From Rothia aerolata (GTDB lineage Bacteria > Actinomycetota > Actinomycetes > Actinomycetales > Micrococcaceae): a DNA stretch of 64,000 nt. Shown here in pieces: positions 21,385 to 62,996 of the stretch. A program made the position numbers and the translations under genes. Numbering within the stretch: the stretch's first letter is position 1; every line of letters starts with the position of its first letter. A model generated the notes under the pieces. That model was not told the origin of the DNA. It saw only the letters and a program-made list of their open reading frames with translations, and did not search any database. The stretch lies in the NCBI RefSeq assembly GCF_014635585.1, contig NZ_BMDC01000004.1:62001-126000 (forward strand). The letters are read 5' to 3'.

Positions 21385-22700
21385 GTGCTCGCTGGAAGCA
21401 AACCGCAACCTCCGAGGAGTTGCTGAACCGCGCCGTCCAGAATTTTAAAGCAACTTTCAACGTTGAACCTGCCGGCGTCTACTCGGCGCCGGGGCGGGTA
21501 AACCTACTGGGCGAGCACATCGACTACTGTGGCGGCACCGTGCTGCCCTTCGCCCTGCCCCAGCGCACCTTTGCGGCGATGGCCCCTCGTGCGGACGGGC
21601 AGGTTCGCGCCGTCACTGCCCAGGGGGACGCCGGGGCGGCGGCTTCCGGCGGAGAGGTTAAGTCGGTAGCGCTGGCGGAGGTGGAGCCGGGCAAGCTGAG
21701 CGGCTGGCTCTCCTACGTTGCCGGAGTTCCCTGGGCGATGGAGCAGGAGTCGCTGGGTTCCTTGGGAACTTTGGGCGCCGATATTGCCATTGACTCCTCG
21801 GTGCCGCTGGGGGCAGGTCTGTCTTCGTCGGCAGCCCTGGAATGCTCGGTGGCGGTCGGCTTCGACGACCTTCTCTCTGCTACCGATTCAAGCCGCGAGC
21901 GCCTGGCCGATACCGATTCTGGCCGGGCCGCGCTGGCCACCGCCTGCATTCGCGCCGAAAACGAGATTGCCGGAGCTTCAACCGGCGGTATGGATCAGTC
22001 CATCTCCCTGCGAGCCCAGCAGGGTGCCGTGCTGGCGATTGACTGCCGGGATTTCTCGGTGAAGCCGCTGACCATTGACGTTGATTCTGCCGGACTTGCC
22101 ATTCTGGTGATCGATACCCGCGCCCACCACAACCTCTCCGACGGGCAGTACGCCGCCCGCCGCGCGTCCACCGAGGTGGCCCGGGAGGCGCTGGGGCTTT
22201 CTTCCCTGCGCGATGCCTTCAGCGGCACCCCCACCCTGGCCGCCGCCGAGAATCTGCTGGCCGACTGGGACTCTCGCGTGGAGTCGCTGAACCTGCCCGA
22301 CTCGGTGGATCGCGGTGTGATTCGCGATGCCCTGCACCACGTGTGGACCGAGATTGCCCGCGTGGAGGAGTGCGTCGCCCTCTTCTCGGGCGGCTCGGTT
22401 TCCGCTGAAACTTGGGCCCGCCTGGGCGAGTTGCTCAACGGCTCCCACGACTCTCTGCGCGATCAGTACCGGGTCTCCTGCCCCGAGTTAGACCTTGCGG
22501 TGGACGCCGCCCGCGTAGCCGGTGCCCTCGGCGCCCGGATGACCGGCGGCGGCTTCGGGGGTTCGGCAATTGCCCTGGTTCCTTCCAATGAGGTGGAGTA
22601 TCTGGCGGAGTCGGTAGCCGCTGCCTTTGAGAAGGCCGACTTTACCCAGCCAGAATTCCTGGTGGCTACTCCCTCGGGGGCGGCGGGGAAGGAAGGGTAG
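21381..22700 (+). CDS. galK: Galactokinase
   Basis: A 439-residue GHMP kinase phosphorylating galactose. The N-terminal galactokinase signature GRVNLLGEHIDYCGGTVLPFA is complete, followed by the ATP-binding PLGAGLSSSAALE and the C-terminal motif MTGGGFGGSAIALV. The ATG overlaps the galT stop in an ATGA. It is the last gene of the unit and ends just before a long bidirectional terminator shared with the convergent galM. It is a little longer than the common 380-400 residues because of inserts near residues 70-95 and 175-190. Confidence 0.95.
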   Translation: MSARWKQTATSEELLNRAVQNFKATFNVEPAGVYSAPGRVNLLGEHIDYCGGTVLPFALPQRTFAAMAPRADGQVRAVTAQGDAGAAASGGEVKSVALAEVEPGKLSGWLSYVAGVPWAMEQESLGSLGTLGADIAIDSSVPLGAGLSSSAALECSVAVGFDDLLSATDSSRERLADTDSGRAALATACIRAENEIAGASTGGMDQSISLRAQQGAVLAIDCRDFSVKPLTIDVDSAGLAILVIDTRAHHNLSDGQYAARRASTEVAREALGLSSLRDAFSGTPTLAAAENLLADWDSRVESLNLPDSVDRGVIRDALHHVWTEIARVEECVALFSGGSVSAETWARLGELLNGSHDSLRDQYRVSCPELDLAVDAARVAGALGARMTGGGFGGSAIALVPSNEVEYLAESVAAAFEKADFTQPEFLVATPSGAAGKEG

Positions 22701-22759
22701 AGCTGGCTGGCACTATAGGTAGGCGGTCATCTCTCTAGGGCGCCTTGTTTCTTGCCTTT

Positions 22760-22819
22760 GGTACACATGGAGCGCGCCAGTACACATCTGTATGTGTACT
22801 GGCGCGCTCCATGTGTACC
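22760..22819. terminator. Bidirectional terminator with perfect 28-bp stem
   Basis: Perfect inverted repeat of 28 bp (22760-22787 with 22792-22819) around a 4-nt loop CTGT, between the convergent galK and galM genes. A T-run follows on the plus side (22825-22829). The arm itself contains GTACACAT twice. It is unusually long and perfect for a terminator. Confidence 0.85.
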
Positions 22820-22828
22820 GAACTGTTT

Positions 22829-27389: not shown

Positions 27390-28346
27390 CTAGAGCTGGA
27401 GTAGCCGGTGAGCCGTAGCAATATCAGTTACCAGCCGATTAGCGTAGCCGTAGCGGGCTGCCACATGAATAGCCCTCAGCTTCTCTTCGCCACCAGCCAC
27501 CAGAATCTTCTGCTCCTTGTGCCGCAAATCCGGCAGGGAGATGCCGAGGGTTCTGTTATTGAGCTCGGGGTTGCAGACCTGCCCCTTCTCATTGAGATAG
27601 CGCGAGCAAATATCGCCCACTGCGCTCTTTCTCAGCTGTGCTTTCTCCCGCTCCGTCATGAGCTCGGAGTCGAAAAGCACCGACCCGCTATCGGTGGAGC
27701 CCACACTATAGACAGCTATACGGCTAGAGGCCCCCATAGCCAGCACCTCTCCCACCTGCCGCTCATGGGCCTTAGCCCGCTTCTCTTCAAAACTGCAGAA
27801 GATAGCGGGGGCGTTGAGCCTGAAAACACTGGCACCGGAAGACTCGGCAAGCTGCCGGTAGGTTTTCTCGATGTGGTGGCTCTTGCTGCTGTGCGGGACG
27901 TCGCCGCGCAGCTGCACTACCCTCATACCGGCTATTTTCTGCGGGGTTAGCGCCTGGACGACCTCTGCGATAGTGGCTGACCAGGAAAGCCCGATAACGT
28001 CGCCCTCCCGCACCAGCTCCTCGAGAAGCTGGGCGGCGCTTCGTCCTAGCGCGTGGCGCAGGTCCATCGGGCCGCGACCGGCAACGCTCACCAGCCGCAC
28101 CTCGGCCAGCTTGTACTTTTGCTTGATGCGTTCAGTCAATAGCTGGTCATGCTCGCGCGGGTCAGCCACAGAAACCTGAATGAAGCCGCTTTCTTTAGCG
28201 TGGGTGAGCAGTTTCGAGACGGTAGGGCGGGCAATATGCAGAAGGGTGGCGACCTGCTGCTGGGAGAGACCCCGTTCGTGGTAGAGCTTGGCTACTTCAA
28301 GTGCCGAGATATCTCTGCGGGTCAGCCCGTACCGATCGCGTTTCAT
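27390..28346 (-). CDS. SorC/DeoR-type sugar-binding transcriptional regulator
   Basis: A 318-residue SorC-family regulator. The N-terminal helix-turn-helix lies at residues about 18-50 (AKLYHERGLSQQQVATLLHI then ARPTVSKLL), followed by a long sugar-phosphate-binding domain (about 60-316) with VGLSWSATIAEVV-like and YSVGSTDSGSVL motifs. It precedes the permease-mutarotase-kinase operon on the same strand with a 133-bp gap that has its own operator-like repeat, so it probably represses that operon until a phosphorylated sugar accumulates. A paralogue at 59760-60716 controls the polyol genes. Confidence 0.9.
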   Translation of the reverse strand: MKRDRYGLTRRDISALEVAKLYHERGLSQQQVATLLHIARPTVSKLLTHAKESGFIQVSVADPREHDQLLTERIKQKYKLAEVRLVSVAGRGPMDLRHALGRSAAQLLEELVREGDVIGLSWSATIAEVVQALTPQKIAGMRVVQLRGDVPHSSKSHHIEKTYRQLAESSGASVFRLNAPAIFCSFEEKRAKAHERQVGEVLAMGASSRIAVYSVGSTDSGSVLFDSELMTEREKAQLRKSAVGDICSRYLNEKGQVCNPELNNRTLGISLPDLRHKEQKILVAGGEEKLRAIHVAARYGYANRLVTDIATAHRLLQL

Positions 28347-28560
28347 AGCTACCTACTTTACGCGGAGCTTCAGCAAACAGCCTCTCTCCCCGCCACCTAC
28401 TGAAACCCTCTAAGCGACAAAAACCGCTCAAAACGCCGTGATACTCCCGAAGGATATGGGGCAATTAGGGGGACAATTTAACAGTTTGCCAGTTTTCGCC
28501 GGGGGCTAGCGGTAGCACTGAGGTTATCCTTATTATGACCGCCAACACCATCATCAATCA

Positions 28561-28810
28561 TTTTCGGTGCGCGGGGCGATAACAGAATAAATCCCGTGAA
28601 GTACCATGCAACCAGTCTGGGAGTCTCGCCTTGTTGACAACTTGCAGACCTCTTATCTGAGCAGGCTGCAAGGCTCTACTGCTGAAGCGCCAATCGGTGG
28701 CAAGCCTCGAATCCACAACCTGCCACCGTGCCAGCACCAAGAGCCACCAGGATGTTCTGTTAACCCCCGCCCGCTCCGAAGGAAGGTGTGGGCGGTCGCT
28801 TTTCTTTTTA
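28561..28810 (+). ncRNA. Candidate stand-alone structured RNA, family not recognised
   Basis: A roughly 250-nt plus-strand segment with ordered stems: GGCGA/TCGCC (28575-28579 with 28626-28630), CCC/GGG inside it (28593-28595 with 28619-28621), TTGCAG/CTGCAA (28642-28647 with 28666-28671) and GGTGGCA/TGCCACC (28696-28702 with 28721-28727). GGTGC/GCACC (28566-28570 with 28734-28738) could close the fold. An intrinsic terminator follows. The downstream gene is on the opposite strand, so it is not a leader or riboswitch. It does not resemble tmRNA, RNase P, SRP or tRNA. The start is approximate: TATTAT at 28531-28536 is only a weak -10 candidate. Confidence 0.45.
28764..28809 (+). terminator. 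Intrinsic terminator of the candidate RNA
   Basis: CCGCCC (28767-28772) pairs with GGGCGG (28790-28795), with further pairing TCC/GGA inside, followed by a T-rich tract 28800-28809 on the plus strand. The minus side lacks a T-run, so the signal belongs to plus-strand transcription. Confidence 0.7.
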
Positions 28811-28833
28811 AGTCGCCAGGCCTGAACGCCTAA

Positions 28834-29715
28834 TTAAGCCCTCTTCTTCAACATCTCAAAGACCACTGAATCGTCCTTACGCCCCAGACCTTCGCGACGT
28901 CCTCGAAGATAAACTTGTTCAGCCGCAGAAGCCAGTGGCACTGGCTGTTCCACCGCCCGGGCAGCATCGGTAACCAATCCCATATCTTTAACAAAGATAT
29001 TCAGTGCTGACTTCACCTCGTCAAAATTGCCCTCAACCATGCGAGCACCACGGTCATTGAACATGAACGACTGTGCGGCGCCAGCATTAAGTACCTCATG
29101 ACACTGGGCTATGTCTAGACCCATAGATTCAGCCAGAGCAAGGGCTTCTCCCGCAGCCGCAATATGTACACCACAAAGTAGTTGGTTAACCACCTTGAAA
29201 CGCTGTCCGTCGCCTACACGCGAGCCCACTACAGGGTAAGTAGAAGCCATAGCATCGAGCAGAGAGTGCACCCGACTAATATCCTCTGCAGAACCACCCA
29301 CCATCACCAGAAGGTCACCGGTGCCGGCGCGAGCAACACCGCCGGAAACAGGGGCATCTACAAAGCGAGTAGTATAGCTAGCCAAGCGTGCAGCAGAAGA
29401 CTCAACAGCGGCAGGACCTACCGTCGACATCACCAGAACTGTAGTTTCTGGTGAAAGAACTTCAGCTATGCCATCTTCCCCGAATAAAACGGCCTCAAGC
29501 TGTGCACCGGTTGCCACCATAATAACCACAACGTCAGCACCGGTTGCAGCATCACGAGAGGTTGAAGCCGAAGCAACCAGAGGAGCTACATTTTCAAGCG
29601 CCGCGGGGTCCATATCAAATGCAGTTATCTCGTGACCTGCTTGAGCGGTAACCAAAGCCATAGGCGCGCCCATTGCACCAAGGCCAATCCAACCGACCTT
29701 CAATGAATCAGACAT
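28834..29715 (-). CDS. ltnD: L-threonate dehydrogenase-like (3-hydroxyisobutyrate dehydrogenase family)
   Basis: A 293-residue beta-hydroxyacid dehydrogenase. It has the Rossmann motif GLGAMGAPM (11-19), substrate-site DAPVSGGVARAGTGDL and the catalytic lysine in FKVVNQLLCG. In DUF1537 pathways LtnD oxidises L-threonate to 2-oxo-tetronate. It lies 48 bases downstream of the tetronate kinase gene, with a TTGGAGG ribosome site. A short hairpin (29744-29758) followed by a T-run precedes that site and could tune expression of this gene relative to the kinase. Tartronate-semialdehyde reductase is the main alternative, but the neighbours favour LtnD. Confidence 0.85.
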   Translation of the reverse strand: MSDSLKVGWIGLGAMGAPMALVTAQAGHEITAFDMDPAALENVAPLVASASTSRDAATGADVVVIMVATGAQLEAVLFGEDGIAEVLSPETTVLVMSTVGPAAVESSAARLASYTTRFVDAPVSGGVARAGTGDLLVMVGGSAEDISRVHSLLDAMASTYPVVGSRVGDGQRFKVVNQLLCGVHIAAAGEALALAESMGLDIAQCHEVLNAGAAQSFMFNDRGARMVEGNFDEVKSALNIFVKDMGLVTDAARAVEQPVPLASAAEQVYLRGRREGLGRKDDSVVFEMLKKRA

Positions 29716-32737: not shown

Positions 32738-33439
32738 ATGAAACTTGCAGAAAAAGTCAGCGATATTATTCTCGACCGCATCGCCAGTGGTTACTACAGC
32801 ATTGGTCAACTCATGCCAGCAGAAAACGAAATCGCTGAAGAACTAGAAGTTTCACGACTAACCCTTCGGGAATCCATTAAGAATCTTGCAGCTCGGGGGG
32901 TTTTAGAAGTCCGCCACGGTAAACGAAACCGGGTTGCCTCTCCGGAGCAGTGGTCAGTAGTCGACCCGCAGCTTGCGCAGATTCGAGGAAAACTCACCGG
33001 AGATCCTATCGCTTGGATTACCCAACTGATGGAAGCACGGCACATCATTGAGGTCGGAGCCAGTGAGCTGGCAGCTACCCGCATTACCGATGAGCAGTTG
33101 GAAGAGCTAGAGCATTCTCTTCAGTCCATGCGCGAGGCAAATGAAAATCATGACTCCACCGCATCCGTCACCGCCGATATGATTTTTCATCGAACCATTA
33201 TCAAAGCGGCCAACAATGAATACATCAGCGCAACTTACGCGCCGCTAGAGGAGATACTCGAGACCGTACGGCGTACGACGTCGTCCTCGCCCGAAGTTAG
33301 AGCAGACGCAGAGCACTGGCACAGCGAAATATACGCGGCTCTCGTCGCACGCTCGCCCCAAAAGACTAGAGATGCCATGCGCTCTCACATGAGTCAAACA
33401 CTCAGCGCTGTCTACACAACCCATAAGGAGAATCAATGA
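32738..33439 (+). CDS. FadR-type GntR-family regulator of tetronate genes
   Basis: A 233-residue GntR regulator. The winged helix is at residues 1-75 (LMPAENEIAEELEVSRLTLR, then ESIKNLAARGVLEVRHG), and the FCD ligand domain at about 90-225 contains the metal-site pattern with His (FHRTIIKAANN) and HWHSEIYAAL. FCD domains usually bind carboxylic acids, which fits tetronates. The gene is divergent from the gntP-otnK-ltnD operon and overlaps denD by four bases. A small symmetric element, TATCTGATA (32658-32666), lies in the shared promoter gap and could be its site; this is only a suggestion. Confidence 0.9.
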   Translation: MKLAEKVSDIILDRIASGYYSIGQLMPAENEIAEELEVSRLTLRESIKNLAARGVLEVRHGKRNRVASPEQWSVVDPQLAQIRGKLTGDPIAWITQLMEARHIIEVGASELAATRITDEQLEELEHSLQSMREANENHDSTASVTADMIFHRTIIKAANNEYISATYAPLEEILETVRRTTSSSPEVRADAEHWHSEIYAALVARSPQKTRDAMRSHMSQTLSAVYTTHKENQ

Positions 33440-41193: not shown

Positions 41194-41238
41194 GGCCAGT
41201 TTTATACCGATTCCACAAAAATCGGTATAAAACTGGCC
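41194..41238 (+). terminator. Terminator after araA
   Basis: Perfect 18-bp inverted repeat (41194-41211 with 41221-41238) around a 9-nt loop, between convergent araA and the alcohol dehydrogenase pseudogene. It could serve both. Confidence 0.85.
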
Positions 41239-48443: not shown

Positions 48444-49337
48444 GTGGCACCTTCTCCCCGCATTGGAATCATCGGAACCGGAGCGATGGGGAAACCTATG
48501 GCCCAACATATCGCTACAGCCAACCCTAATCTAGTCTGCTATACCACCCATGACGGTCTTCCGCTAAGCACTCTCAAGGCGGCCTCTCACGTGCCCACGA
48601 ACTTTGACGTGGGGGCAGGCAGCGACGTCGTCCTCACCGTTCTGCCCGATTTGCCACAGTTACGTGAGGTACTCTACGGAGACTCCACCGGTGAAGACCG
48701 CGGACTACTTGCCGGTATTGGCAACCGCGACGTGCTACTAATCATTAGTTCATCATCATCGCCCGACGGCGTGCGGAAGCTGGCCGAGGAACTAACGGCT
48801 AGTACCTCAGTACGAGTAGTGGATGCCCCGCTTTCCGGCGGGGTTGAGGGCGCAGCCGCCGGTACCCTCTCGATTATGGTTGGAGGGTCTCAGGCCGACG
48901 CTACCCAAGCTATTTCTGTGCTCTCAGCTTGTGGCACCCCTGTGCACCTCGGCCCTTTGGGAGCAGGTCAAGTAGCCAAGGCCTGCAACCAGCTGATTGT
49001 TGCTGCCACCGTGATGGCAGTGGGCGAAGCTGCCGTTTTGGCCCAGCGTTCTGATTTAGATCTGCGCCAAATGTTTGAGCTTTTGGGCGGCGGTTACGCA
49101 GGATCTAAGGTGCTCACCACCAAGGCGTTCCGTATGGCAGATGAAGACTACGATGGTGGTGGTGCAGCTAAATACATGGTCAAAGATTTGGGCATTGCCC
49201 GTAGCATTGCAGAATCCACCGAAACCAACTCAGTGCTGGGCGGCCCCCTCTTCTCTGCCTTTGAAGAGCTCTCAGAATCTGCCGGACTGGGCGATAAAGA
49301 TATCTGTGTGACCCGTAAGTTCATTGAAGAGCGATGA
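48444..49337 (+). CDS. GarR-like NAD(P)-dependent beta-hydroxyacid dehydrogenase
   Basis: A 297-residue member of the 3-hydroxyisobutyrate dehydrogenase family. GIIGTGAMGKPMA (7-19) is the Rossmann motif, VVDAPLSGGVEGAAAGTLSIMVGG the substrate site, and GQVAKACNQLIVAA carries the catalytic lysine. It starts with GTG after GAGGCG. Relatives include tartronate-semialdehyde reductase and LtnD; here, divergent from the 2-ketoacid reductase and sharing an IclR-type operator, it probably acts on a sugar-acid intermediate. A strong terminator follows. Confidence 0.83.
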   Translation: MAPSPRIGIIGTGAMGKPMAQHIATANPNLVCYTTHDGLPLSTLKAASHVPTNFDVGAGSDVVLTVLPDLPQLREVLYGDSTGEDRGLLAGIGNRDVLLIISSSSSPDGVRKLAEELTASTSVRVVDAPLSGGVEGAAAGTLSIMVGGSQADATQAISVLSACGTPVHLGPLGAGQVAKACNQLIVAATVMAVGEAAVLAQRSDLDLRQMFELLGGGYAGSKVLTTKAFRMADEDYDGGGAAKYMVKDLGIARSIAESTETNSVLGGPLFSAFEELSESAGLGDKDICVTRKFIEER

Positions 49338-49363: not shown

Positions 49364-49407
49364 AAAACCGGCTTTAAACGCTCATACTAGCGTTTAAAGC
49401 CGGTTTT
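49364..49407. terminator. Bidirectional terminator
   Basis: Perfect 19-bp inverted repeat (49364-49382 with 49389-49407) around a 6-nt loop, between the convergent GarR-like gene and gntP. The foot is AAAA/TTTT, and a T-run is present on each strand. Confidence 0.88.
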
Positions 49408-49428: not shown

Positions 49429-50824
49429 CTACCCCAGCGAAGCCAGCGCAAACACGCCCACCGCAATCACGAAGCCGACCAGGGCGATGAGAGTCTCCAT
49501 GACGGTCCAGGTTTTGAGGGTGGTTTTTTCGTCCATGTTGAAGAAGCGGCTCACCAGCCAGAAGCCCGAATCGTTGAAGTGGGAGAGAATCACCGAACCG
49601 GCCGCCACGGCAATCACCAGAGCCGCAAGCTGTATGTTGTTGTAGTCGGCTTGAGAAACCGCCGGGGCAATCAGGCCTGCTGCGGTGGTCAGCGCCACGG
49701 TGGCAGAGCCCTGGGCCACGCGCAGAATCGAAGCAATGAGGAAGCCCGAGAAAATAAGCGGCAGGCCAATGTCTGCCAGCACGTCGGTCAGGGCCTCGCC
49801 AATGCCGGAGGTACGGAGGACGCCGCCGAACATGCCGCCTGCGCCGGTAATGAGGATGACCGAGCACACCGCAGGCAGGGCCCTCTCCATGGTGTGTTGC
49901 AGGCCGAGCAGGTGGTCGTGGCGCTTGATGCCCAGCAGATACATCGCGAAGAAGGTGGTGATGAGCAGGGCAACCGGGGTCTCACCGATGAGGCGCAGCA
50001 GCTGGTACCAGAGGGCAGATTCGGTCTCCTCGCTCAAAACGCCACTGGTGAGCAGGGTGTTCAGGCCGGTGTTGAGGAAGATCAGAACCATGGGCAGAAT
50101 CAGCACAAAGAGAACGGTGCCGAACTTGGGCGGATCGTGCGGCTCTTCAGGAGCTTCTTCCTGGCCCATAATTAGCGGAACGTCCAGGTGGATTTTCTTG
50201 CCCACCACCTTAGAGAAGAAGTAAACGGCAAGAAACCAGGTGGGAATAGCCACGATGAGGCCCACCAAGAGGGTGCTGCCGACGTTGGCGTTAAAGAAGG
50301 CGGCGGCAGAAACCGGGCCGGGGTGCGGTGGAACAAACACGTGCATCACTGAGAAAGCACCGGCAACCGGAATTCCGTAGAGAAGCATGGAGCCGCCCAG
50401 CCAGCGGGCTACCGAGAACATAATCGGTAGCATCACCACCAGACCGGCGTCAAAGAAGATGGGAAAGCCAAAGAGTAGAGAGGCCACGCCCAGCGCCAGA
50501 GGTGCACGCTTTTCGCCAAAGACCTCAATCAGCTTCATTGCCAGCACCTGGGCACCGCCGGAATACTGAATCAGGGCACCGAGCATAGCGCCCAAACCAA
50601 CCAGCAGGGCCACCGAGGCAAGGGTGCCACCGAAACCGCTGGTCATGGCGGGAATAATCTGGTCTACCGGAATACCGGTAGCCAGTGCGGTCACCAGACT
50701 CACCAGAATCAGCGCGGGGAAAGCGTGTAGCTTCAGCTTGATAATAAGCAAGAGCAATAGCCCCCGCCGCGATAGCCAAGAGCGGGCCAGCCGTGAGGGT
50801 TTGGCTCCAGCCTTCAATCTCCAT
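49429..50824 (-). CDS. gntP: GntP-family gluconate permease with a frameshift near its 5' end
   Basis: A GntP permease of about 464 residues with typical motifs: VGLGAMLGALIQYSGGAQVLA, FVPPHPGPVSAAAF and GAGGMFGGVLRTSGIGEAL. The natural start is the ATG at 50824 (MEIEGWSQTL) after an AGAAGGA site, but that frame fails after LLAIAAGAIALA, and the body of the protein continues in another frame from LLLLLIIKLKLH. Removing one G from the G5 run (plus-strand C5 at 50761-50765) would join them as AIAAGLLLLLIIKLKL. So it is either a one-base insertion, phase-variable slippage or a sequencing error. A TTG start at 50817 in the main frame would lose the first membrane helix. Confidence 0.82.
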
Positions 50825-51012
50825 GAGGATCCTTCTCTAAGAATGAAAATGTGCTCTTATAGTGTGCCCCCTTAAAGTGAAAAAGCGCCTTTCCACAACG
50901 GGATATTACAAATTTGGTAAAAGTTCCGGCCGACTAGAGAACGTTCGTTCAATCCTTGCCCGCCACCGGTCAAGAAAGCAGAAACGGCAGTGCTTCAGAA
51001 GATAATTAATCC

Positions 51013-52479
51013 ATGGCATATTTCGGTTTTGACGTAGGAACATCCAGCACCAAGGCGGTTCTCATCGGCGAGAATGGCCAGCTACTCGATACCGCCACCG
51101 TTGAACACGCGGTCACCCGCGGCGAGCGCGGCCTGGTGGAGATGGGCATGGATATTTGGTGGCAGGAATTCAAAGACCTCTACTCCCGCCTGGTAGGCAA
51201 GAACGGGATAAAGGTTAGGGGAATCGGGGTCTCGGGTATGGGCCCCTGTGTGGGCATAACCACCGAAGCAGGCAAGCCTCTAGCCCCGGCTGCCCTCTAC
51301 GGTATTGACTGGCGGGCACTGACCGAGGTTGAAGAACTCACCGAGAAGTACGGCGAAGAAAACCTGCTTGCCACCTACGATTCGGCCCTGACCTCCCAAG
51401 CAGGAGGCCCCAAGGTCGCCTGGTTCCGCAAGCGCCACCCCGAGGCTTTTGCGGCGGGCGTTCGGCTCTTCATGCCTCACTCCTGGGTGATCTGGCAGCT
51501 GACCGGCGACTACGTGCTCGACCGCCACTCTGCCTCCCAGCTCACCCCGCTCTATGACCCCGCCAGCGGCGAGTGGGATTTCGCTAAGGTGCGCGAAATT
51601 GGTGGCGAGAATTTTCTTACCCCGCGCCTGGGCTACTCGAACGAGATCGCAGCCGAGACCCGCGCGTCCTCAGAACTGCCCGAACTTGAGGCGGGAATCC
51701 CGGTGATTTTCGGTTCCATCGACGCCTGGGCGGAGCAGGAGTCGGTGGGCGCGATTGCCCATCGCGAGCTCTTTCTGATGTACGGCACCACCCTCTTCTT
51801 GATTGCGAACGCCGAAACCCGCATGCGCCACCTCTCCATGTGGGGCACCACCGGCACGCGCGCTGGTACGCGCAATCTGGCGGGTGGGCTCGCGACCTCC
51901 GGTGCGCTCACCAACTGGTTCCGCGATCTCACGGGCGAGCGCGACTACGCCGCTTTAATTAAGGACGCCGCCGCGGTGGCTCCCGGAGCGAACGGGCTGC
52001 TCGCGCTGCCCTATTTTGCCGGGGAACGCACGCCGATTCAAGATCCCAATGCCCGAGGGGTGCTGCTGGGCTTGACCCTAGACCACACCCGCGGGCATAT
52101 TTACCGCGCCCTTCTAGAGAGCACGGCTTTTGCGGTACGGCACAACATTGAGACCATGGAGGTAGCTGGCGCTGAGATTGAGAGGATTACCTGTGCCGGT
52201 GGCGGCGTGAAGTCCCCGCTGTGGCCGCAGATTATCTCTGACGTGACCGGCCGTGCTCAGGTGGTTCGCAAGCACACCATCGGCGCTTCTTTTGGCGATG
52301 CTTTTATGGTGGCGCAAACCCTGGGTGCGGTGTCTGAGCTGGACGAGTGGAACCCTGTTGATCACCTGGTGCAGCCGCAGGATATTCCCCTCTACGATTC
52401 TCTCTACCAGGACTACCGCGCCCTCTACACGGCTACCGCCGACATCCAGCACCGAATGGCGGGGATACAGAATAGTTAA
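51013..52479 (+). CDS. FGGY-family gluconokinase
   Basis: A 488-residue FGGY kinase. FGFDVGTSSTKAVLI, GVSGMGPCVGIT, YGIDWRA, YGTTLFLI and TCAGGGVKSPLWPQIISDVT are the fold motifs. It is divergent from gntP, with 188 bases between the starts, so gluconate (or a similar acid) is the likely substrate, as in Bacillus gntK-gntP pairs. Xylulokinase would be the main alternative, but a true XylB is encoded at 53320-54708. The start has no strong ribosome site; the ATG gives a family-typical N-terminus. It ends at a shared terminator. Confidence 0.82.
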   Translation: MAYFGFDVGTSSTKAVLIGENGQLLDTATVEHAVTRGERGLVEMGMDIWWQEFKDLYSRLVGKNGIKVRGIGVSGMGPCVGITTEAGKPLAPAALYGIDWRALTEVEELTEKYGEENLLATYDSALTSQAGGPKVAWFRKRHPEAFAAGVRLFMPHSWVIWQLTGDYVLDRHSASQLTPLYDPASGEWDFAKVREIGGENFLTPRLGYSNEIAAETRASSELPELEAGIPVIFGSIDAWAEQESVGAIAHRELFLMYGTTLFLIANAETRMRHLSMWGTTGTRAGTRNLAGGLATSGALTNWFRDLTGERDYAALIKDAAAVAPGANGLLALPYFAGERTPIQDPNARGVLLGLTLDHTRGHIYRALLESTAFAVRHNIETMEVAGAEIERITCAGGGVKSPLWPQIISDVTGRAQVVRKHTIGASFGDAFMVAQTLGAVSELDEWNPVDHLVQPQDIPLYDSLYQDYRALYTATADIQHRMAGIQNS

Positions 52480-60718: not shown

Positions 60719-60775
60719 GCTGAGGGTCCACTTTCAACCGTTTTTACCTCAAGCGGTTGAAAGTGAACCCTCAGC
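60719..60775. terminator. Terminator between SorC regulator and polyol permease genes
   Basis: 22-base arms (60719-60740 with 60754-60775) with a single mismatch, 13-nt loop, between two convergent genes. It begins directly after the SorC stop. Confidence 0.82.
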
Positions 60776-62939: not shown

Positions 62940-62996
62940 CGAACGGTGGATTTTAGGCTTAAAATCGCCAGATTTAAGCCTAAAATCCACCGTTCG
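62940..62996. terminator. Bidirectional terminator with perfect 24-bp stem
   Basis: Perfect 24-bp inverted repeat (62940-62963 with 62973-62996) around a 9-nt loop, between the convergent effector-binding protein gene and the glutamate dehydrogenase gene. Confidence 0.87.

Follow-up and report, generated by a model that had tools for sequence, protein, structure and literature searches.

A terminator-like hairpin inside an imperfect inverted repeat between two catabolic modules

The gap between ltnD and a SorC-family regulator gene in the DNA analysed here (the window, 64,000 nt in full) had been predicted from its stems and its T-tract to hold an orphan structured RNA with its own terminator. 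The question raised by this locus is whether an RNA gene is present, or a plain spacer in which a terminator and a fold happen to lie. An RNA gene requires transcription and selection on structure. On the evidence set out below, we lean against the orphan-RNA interpretation of the region.

Genomic setting of the spacer

On the minus strand, the spacer is bounded by the 3' end of ltnD at 28834 and by the SorC-family regulator gene, which starts at 28346 (Table 1). The original prediction had rightly placed ltnD on the minus strand, pointing the other way, but overlooked the second flank, which is the SorC-family regulator. ltnD closes a gntP-otnK-ltnD set, from which a GntR-type regulator is divergent. 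The nearest plus-strand gene start downstream is at 32738, with none within 3.9 kb, so that the region is not the leader of any plus-strand gene, as had been proposed. A terminator scan of the spacer likewise found no minus-strand T-tail terminator between ltnD and the SorC-family gene, in agreement with the earlier claim.

Table 1. Features of the spacer and its flanks (positions of the window)
Feature	Coordinates	Strand	Basis and remarks
SorC-family sugar-responsive regulator gene	27390-28346	minus	one flank of the spacer
Intergenic spacer, 487 nt	28347-28833	.	between the SorC-family regulator gene and ltnD; ORF list, Pfam
TAAATT with extended -10 TG	28475-28480	minus	plausible promoter element of the SorC-family gene, score near background
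TATTAT, best plus-strand -10-like hexamer	28531-28536	plus	no convincing -35, background-level score
5' arm of the inverted repeat	28537-28598	plus	repeat finder, folding
Inner hairpin CTTGCAG/CTGCAAG with upper stem	28641-28672	plus	MFE helix list
Inner stem-loop with the GGTGGCA/TGCCACC stem	28673-28744	plus	repeat finder, folding
3' arm of the inverted repeat, holding both strands of the terminator-like hairpin	28745-28797	plus	repeat finder, folding
Terminator-like hairpin CCGCCCGC.CC / GG.GTGGGCGG, 7-nt loop	28767-28795	plus	folding, T-tail scan
T-tract TTTTCTTTTT	28800-28809	plus strand only	sequence
ltnD, 3-hydroxyisobutyrate-dehydrogenase-like	28834-29715	minus	other flank of the spacer

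The gntP-otnK-ltnD set is present in ten other congeneric genomes. The spacer is absent after ltnD in all ten, and what follows ltnD varies among them, which indicates that the junction is unconserved. Since it differs from that of the relatives, the spacer represents a lineage-specific junction. Two congeneric genomes, G027 and G011, have this regulator directly next to an FGGY kinase gene that is transcribed divergently from it, with a gap of ~0.1 kb. The FGGY kinase lies here at 51013-52479, 22.7 kb from the regulator (27390-28346), and arabinose, threonate-type and other sugar-acid modules are found between the two. A regulatory region that fires in the plus direction elsewhere thus now faces ltnD. 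The spacer was also considered as a remnant of the FGGY kinase of G027 and G011; this was rejected, as no convincing alignment was obtained and an intact kinase is present at 51013.

A second ltnD-like dehydrogenase (48444-49337, ~35% identical to the first) lies beside a second GntP permease (49429-50817), 20 kb from the first set. The frame of this permease (49429-50825, minus strand) has a TTG start. Judged by eye, the initial ~20 residues seem to be out of frame, and an ATG at 50824 opens another frame that resembles, also by eye, a permease N-terminus. This suggests a frameshift or an assembly error near 50745.

The arms, the inner stems and the role of chance

Repeat finding and folding delimited a 261-nt imperfect inverted repeat at 28537-28797. 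Two nested inverted pairs found by a repeat search (28537-28552/28782-28797 and 28574-28587/28755-28768) combine into a single long imperfect duplex with the arms 28537-28598 and 28745-28797. Its strongest part is the outer helix 28537-28552/28782-28797, which continues to 28598/28745. The 5' arm reads GACCGCC-A-ACACC-A-TC ... TTTCGG-T-GC-GCGGGG ... TAACAGAAT ... ATCC-C-GTG. The original prediction had put its stems where they are indeed found, but it began the structured region too late and missed the outer arm pair. The predicted GGTGGCA/TGCCACC stem is present at 28696-28702/28721-28727 and actually comprises 8 bp (CGGTGGCA at 28695-28702 and TGCCACCG at 28721-28728). The several nested stems described around it are present as well, but the inner region folds no better than chance (z of -0.4 to -0.7 on the plus strand and -0.9 to -1.2 on the minus strand), and the inner nested stems are not evidence for a structured RNA.

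The plus-strand minimum free energy of 28537-28797 was -108.9 kcal/mol, compared with -80.0 ± 4.8 kcal/mol in dinucleotide shuffles (z -6.0, reached by 0 of 300), in a test whose ends had been fixed after inspection and chosen as the best. With the ends fixed in this manner, the minus strand gave a z of -4.6, and the arm duplex reached -63.2 kcal/mol against -29.7 ± 5.9 kcal/mol in shuffles (0 of 500). Because the ends had been chosen by looking, the comparison was repeated with the whole 487-nt spacer shuffled and each shuffle free to pick its best arms. In this search-corrected test, the arm-duplex value was reached by one of 160 shuffles and the plus-strand minimum free energy by four of 160. 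The structural excess is modest but real-looking after search correction. It arises almost wholly from the arms, which had not been part of the original prediction, and these arms are probably a genuine feature.

A chance fold, in which two segments of a G+C-rich spacer happen to pair and were noticed as many windows were read, is an improbable alternative. A search-corrected p of ~0.01-0.03 for this single spacer speaks for it, as do the frequent terminator-like sites in shuffled sequence (see below) and an equally strong arm duplex (-63.7 kcal/mol) that the window contains in a GC-rich stretch at 21601. On the other hand, in a survey of 333 sliding windows covering part of the sequence, this region was one of only a few to give z below -4, and the other, non-overlapping places of this kind were long simple hairpins (22757, 41194) or another strong inverted repeat near 1677.

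The terminator-like hairpin and its upstream competitor

The hairpin at 28767-28795 alone folds with -19.9 kcal/mol (local z -5.1) and is followed on the plus strand by TCGC-TTTTCTTTTT. A G+C-rich hairpin and a T-tract are thus found on the same strand, and the predicted intrinsic terminator with a plus-strand T-tract was recovered as a terminator-like hairpin both by folding and by a T-tail scan, where it scored -20.3 kcal/mol and was one of the four strongest hairpins in the window. In shuffled sequence, the same type of scan gave 6-12 hairpins of -15 kcal/mol or lower with a T-rich tail per 64 kb, both strands included, and a stricter consensus terminator scan of the window did not list the hairpin at 28767-28795. 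The candidate terminator faces away from both neighbouring genes and thus serves no annotated transcript.

Elsewhere in the window, a 31-bp hairpin, near-perfect and with a loop of 4 nt (22757-22822), is the strongest fold among the surveyed windows. Similar hairpins of 19-25 bp, located at 41194-41238, 49364-49407, 60719-60775 and 62940-62996, resemble two-way terminators of the genome.

Since the 3' arm contains the terminator-like hairpin, this hairpin and the outer helix are mutually exclusive. At equilibrium, the calculated probability of the outer helix was 0.9996 for a transcript starting at 28537, and that of the outer pairs was ~0.54 for a transcript starting at 28543. The local hairpin may still win during transcription. 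As to the origin of such a transcript, the hexamer TATTAT sits just upstream of the 5' arm. The best plus-strand promoter score, 14, equals the background median and was reached by 67% of background pieces, and promoter scoring found no plus-strand promoter above background in the region.

These observations bear on the reading of the region as a species-restricted small RNA of ~260-275 nt that would extend from near 28537-28543 to the T-tract and form a rod closed by the long helix. The fixed-end fold, with a z of -6.0 on the plus strand versus -4.6 on the minus strand, the mean probability of 0.88 for the predicted pairs of the plus-strand fold, the T-tract terminator at the 3' end and the position of TATTAT all fit such an RNA, whereas a background-level promoter score, an inner part at chance level and search-corrected support of just 1 to 4 in 160 do not. 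Moreover, the helix that closes such an RNA would compete with its terminator hairpin for the same 3' strand, and an RNA begun at 28537 would have its terminator blocked by the outer helix. Taken together with the lack of relatives described below, we regard this small RNA as unlikely, though it is an alternative of some weight. Less probable still is an extended version, namely a SorC-linked, species-restricted regulatory RNA of ~260 nt whose closing helix would sequester its own terminator's 3' strand, switching between a short terminated RNA and a read-through transcript antisense to ltnD-otnK-gntP and thereby coupling the two catabolic modules. A transcribed switch of this type would act on a threonate-type operon as an antisense regulator, one that the RNA libraries of today fail to recognise; the evidence given here falls short of it.

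Relatives, preferred reading and comparison with known systems

The region had been described as belonging to no recognised RNA family, and the Rfam search now run agrees: Rfam 15 gave no match at the gathering score in the window and none up to E = 10 in 28300-28900. ARAGORN found no tRNA or tmRNA gene in the window. No 6S RNA (RF00013) scored over the cut-off in 35 congeneric genomes, and none was found in the own genome at E values up to 10.

The original prediction had called for an alignment across Rothia genomes, and no relative was found by sequence among 35 congeneric genomes. The same applied to 295 genomes of the family (own genus included) and 396 genomes of the phylum, so that the region had no sequence relative in ~700 genomes in all. 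The best sequence matches elsewhere were words of 31-35 nt within unrelated coding sequences (gltX, a DinG-like helicase and an amino-acid decarboxylase, the genes being read by eye from translations). A single-sequence covariance model found only short local hairpins of 20-105 nt elsewhere. Plasmid and phage records held no relatives of the region, the window no second copy, and viral contigs no match to a 25-mer pattern of the arms, a 16-mer pattern being too unspecific. A scan of contigs returned SorC relatives only, all of them distant and from other genera. Both the sequence result and the structure-model result speak against the small RNA discussed above.

The earlier idea that the region could turn out to be a decayed gene was examined by six-frame, family and genome searches and was not supported. 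A minus-strand frame (28561-28833) is open for 91 codons and the short DNA words mentioned above match coding sequences of gltX, dinG-like and decarboxylase genes in other genomes, as a protein-gene remnant on either strand might. However, the six frames compared with Pfam/NCBIfam gave nothing beyond noise, PHROGs (three frames) and PDB (two peptides) gave no matches, and the 91-codon frame had scattered weak matches only, none of them in congeneric genomes. This reading is close to refuted.

We consider the chances about even that the region is a lineage-specific spacer at a catabolic-module junction with a plus-strand intrinsic terminator, which lies inside an imperfect inverted repeat of chance or relic origin. 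This reading is favoured by the strong hairpin and its T-tract on the plus strand, with no plus-strand gene within 3.9 kb downstream, and by the position of ltnD opposite a regulatory region that fires in the plus direction elsewhere. In addition, the junction is unconserved, neither the sequence searches nor the structure model gave a relative, and the inner fold does not exceed chance. At this spacer, the threonate-type module meets the SorC-family regulator. We infer that the plus strand is transcribed and that the hairpin ends this transcription: RNA would arise within the SorC regulatory region or past it, by divergent or antisense initiation, reach 28767-28809 and be released there. Such a release would keep stray transcripts from running antisense through ltnD-otnK-gntP, and the folded upstream segment would have no conserved RNA function. 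Three observations argue against this spacer reading. The arm pairing beats 159 of 160 search-corrected and 500 of 500 fixed-end shuffles, and a mere spacer needs none; the outer helix would, in the equilibrium model, disable the terminator in a transcript from 28537; and no plus-strand promoter scores above background.

The region resembles a decayed non-autonomous MITE-like element of 261 bp, with ~55-60 nt of terminal inverted repeat on each side and a terminator-like end, in that imperfect inverted repeats bound a gene-free 261-bp segment. The middle is unstructured, both strands fold strongly, as expected of an inverted repeat in DNA, and the junction where the segment sits is not the same in the relatives. 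It differs from such elements in being a single copy in its own genome, absent elsewhere, and in having no target-site duplication of at least 4 nt within 3 nt of either end. A MITE-like origin is therefore doubtful, a little more so than the small RNA and a little less so than the chance fold.

Among RNAs of known function, Ms1 and 6S are rod-like RNA polymerase-binding RNAs (PMC9130861, PMC4191392), and Ms1 is reported to show synteny with an HAD-IB hydrolase gene (PMC9130861). The region shares with both the size range and the long closing helix. In contrast to Ms1, it is flanked by the SorC-family regulator and ltnD instead of an HAD-IB hydrolase, and it is not conserved in the genus, unlike Ms1 with its conservation in closely related species.

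Finally, the region resembles intrinsic (Rho-independent) terminators in its G+C-rich hairpin followed by a one-strand T-tract, located at a module boundary. It differs from them in that the T-tract starts 4 nt past the stem, in its orientation away from both neighbouring genes, and in that an arm far upstream offers the 3' strand of the 28767-28795 hairpin a second pairing partner. A terminator at the module joint, taken alone, would provide a small example of the insulation of catabolic modules after rearrangement.
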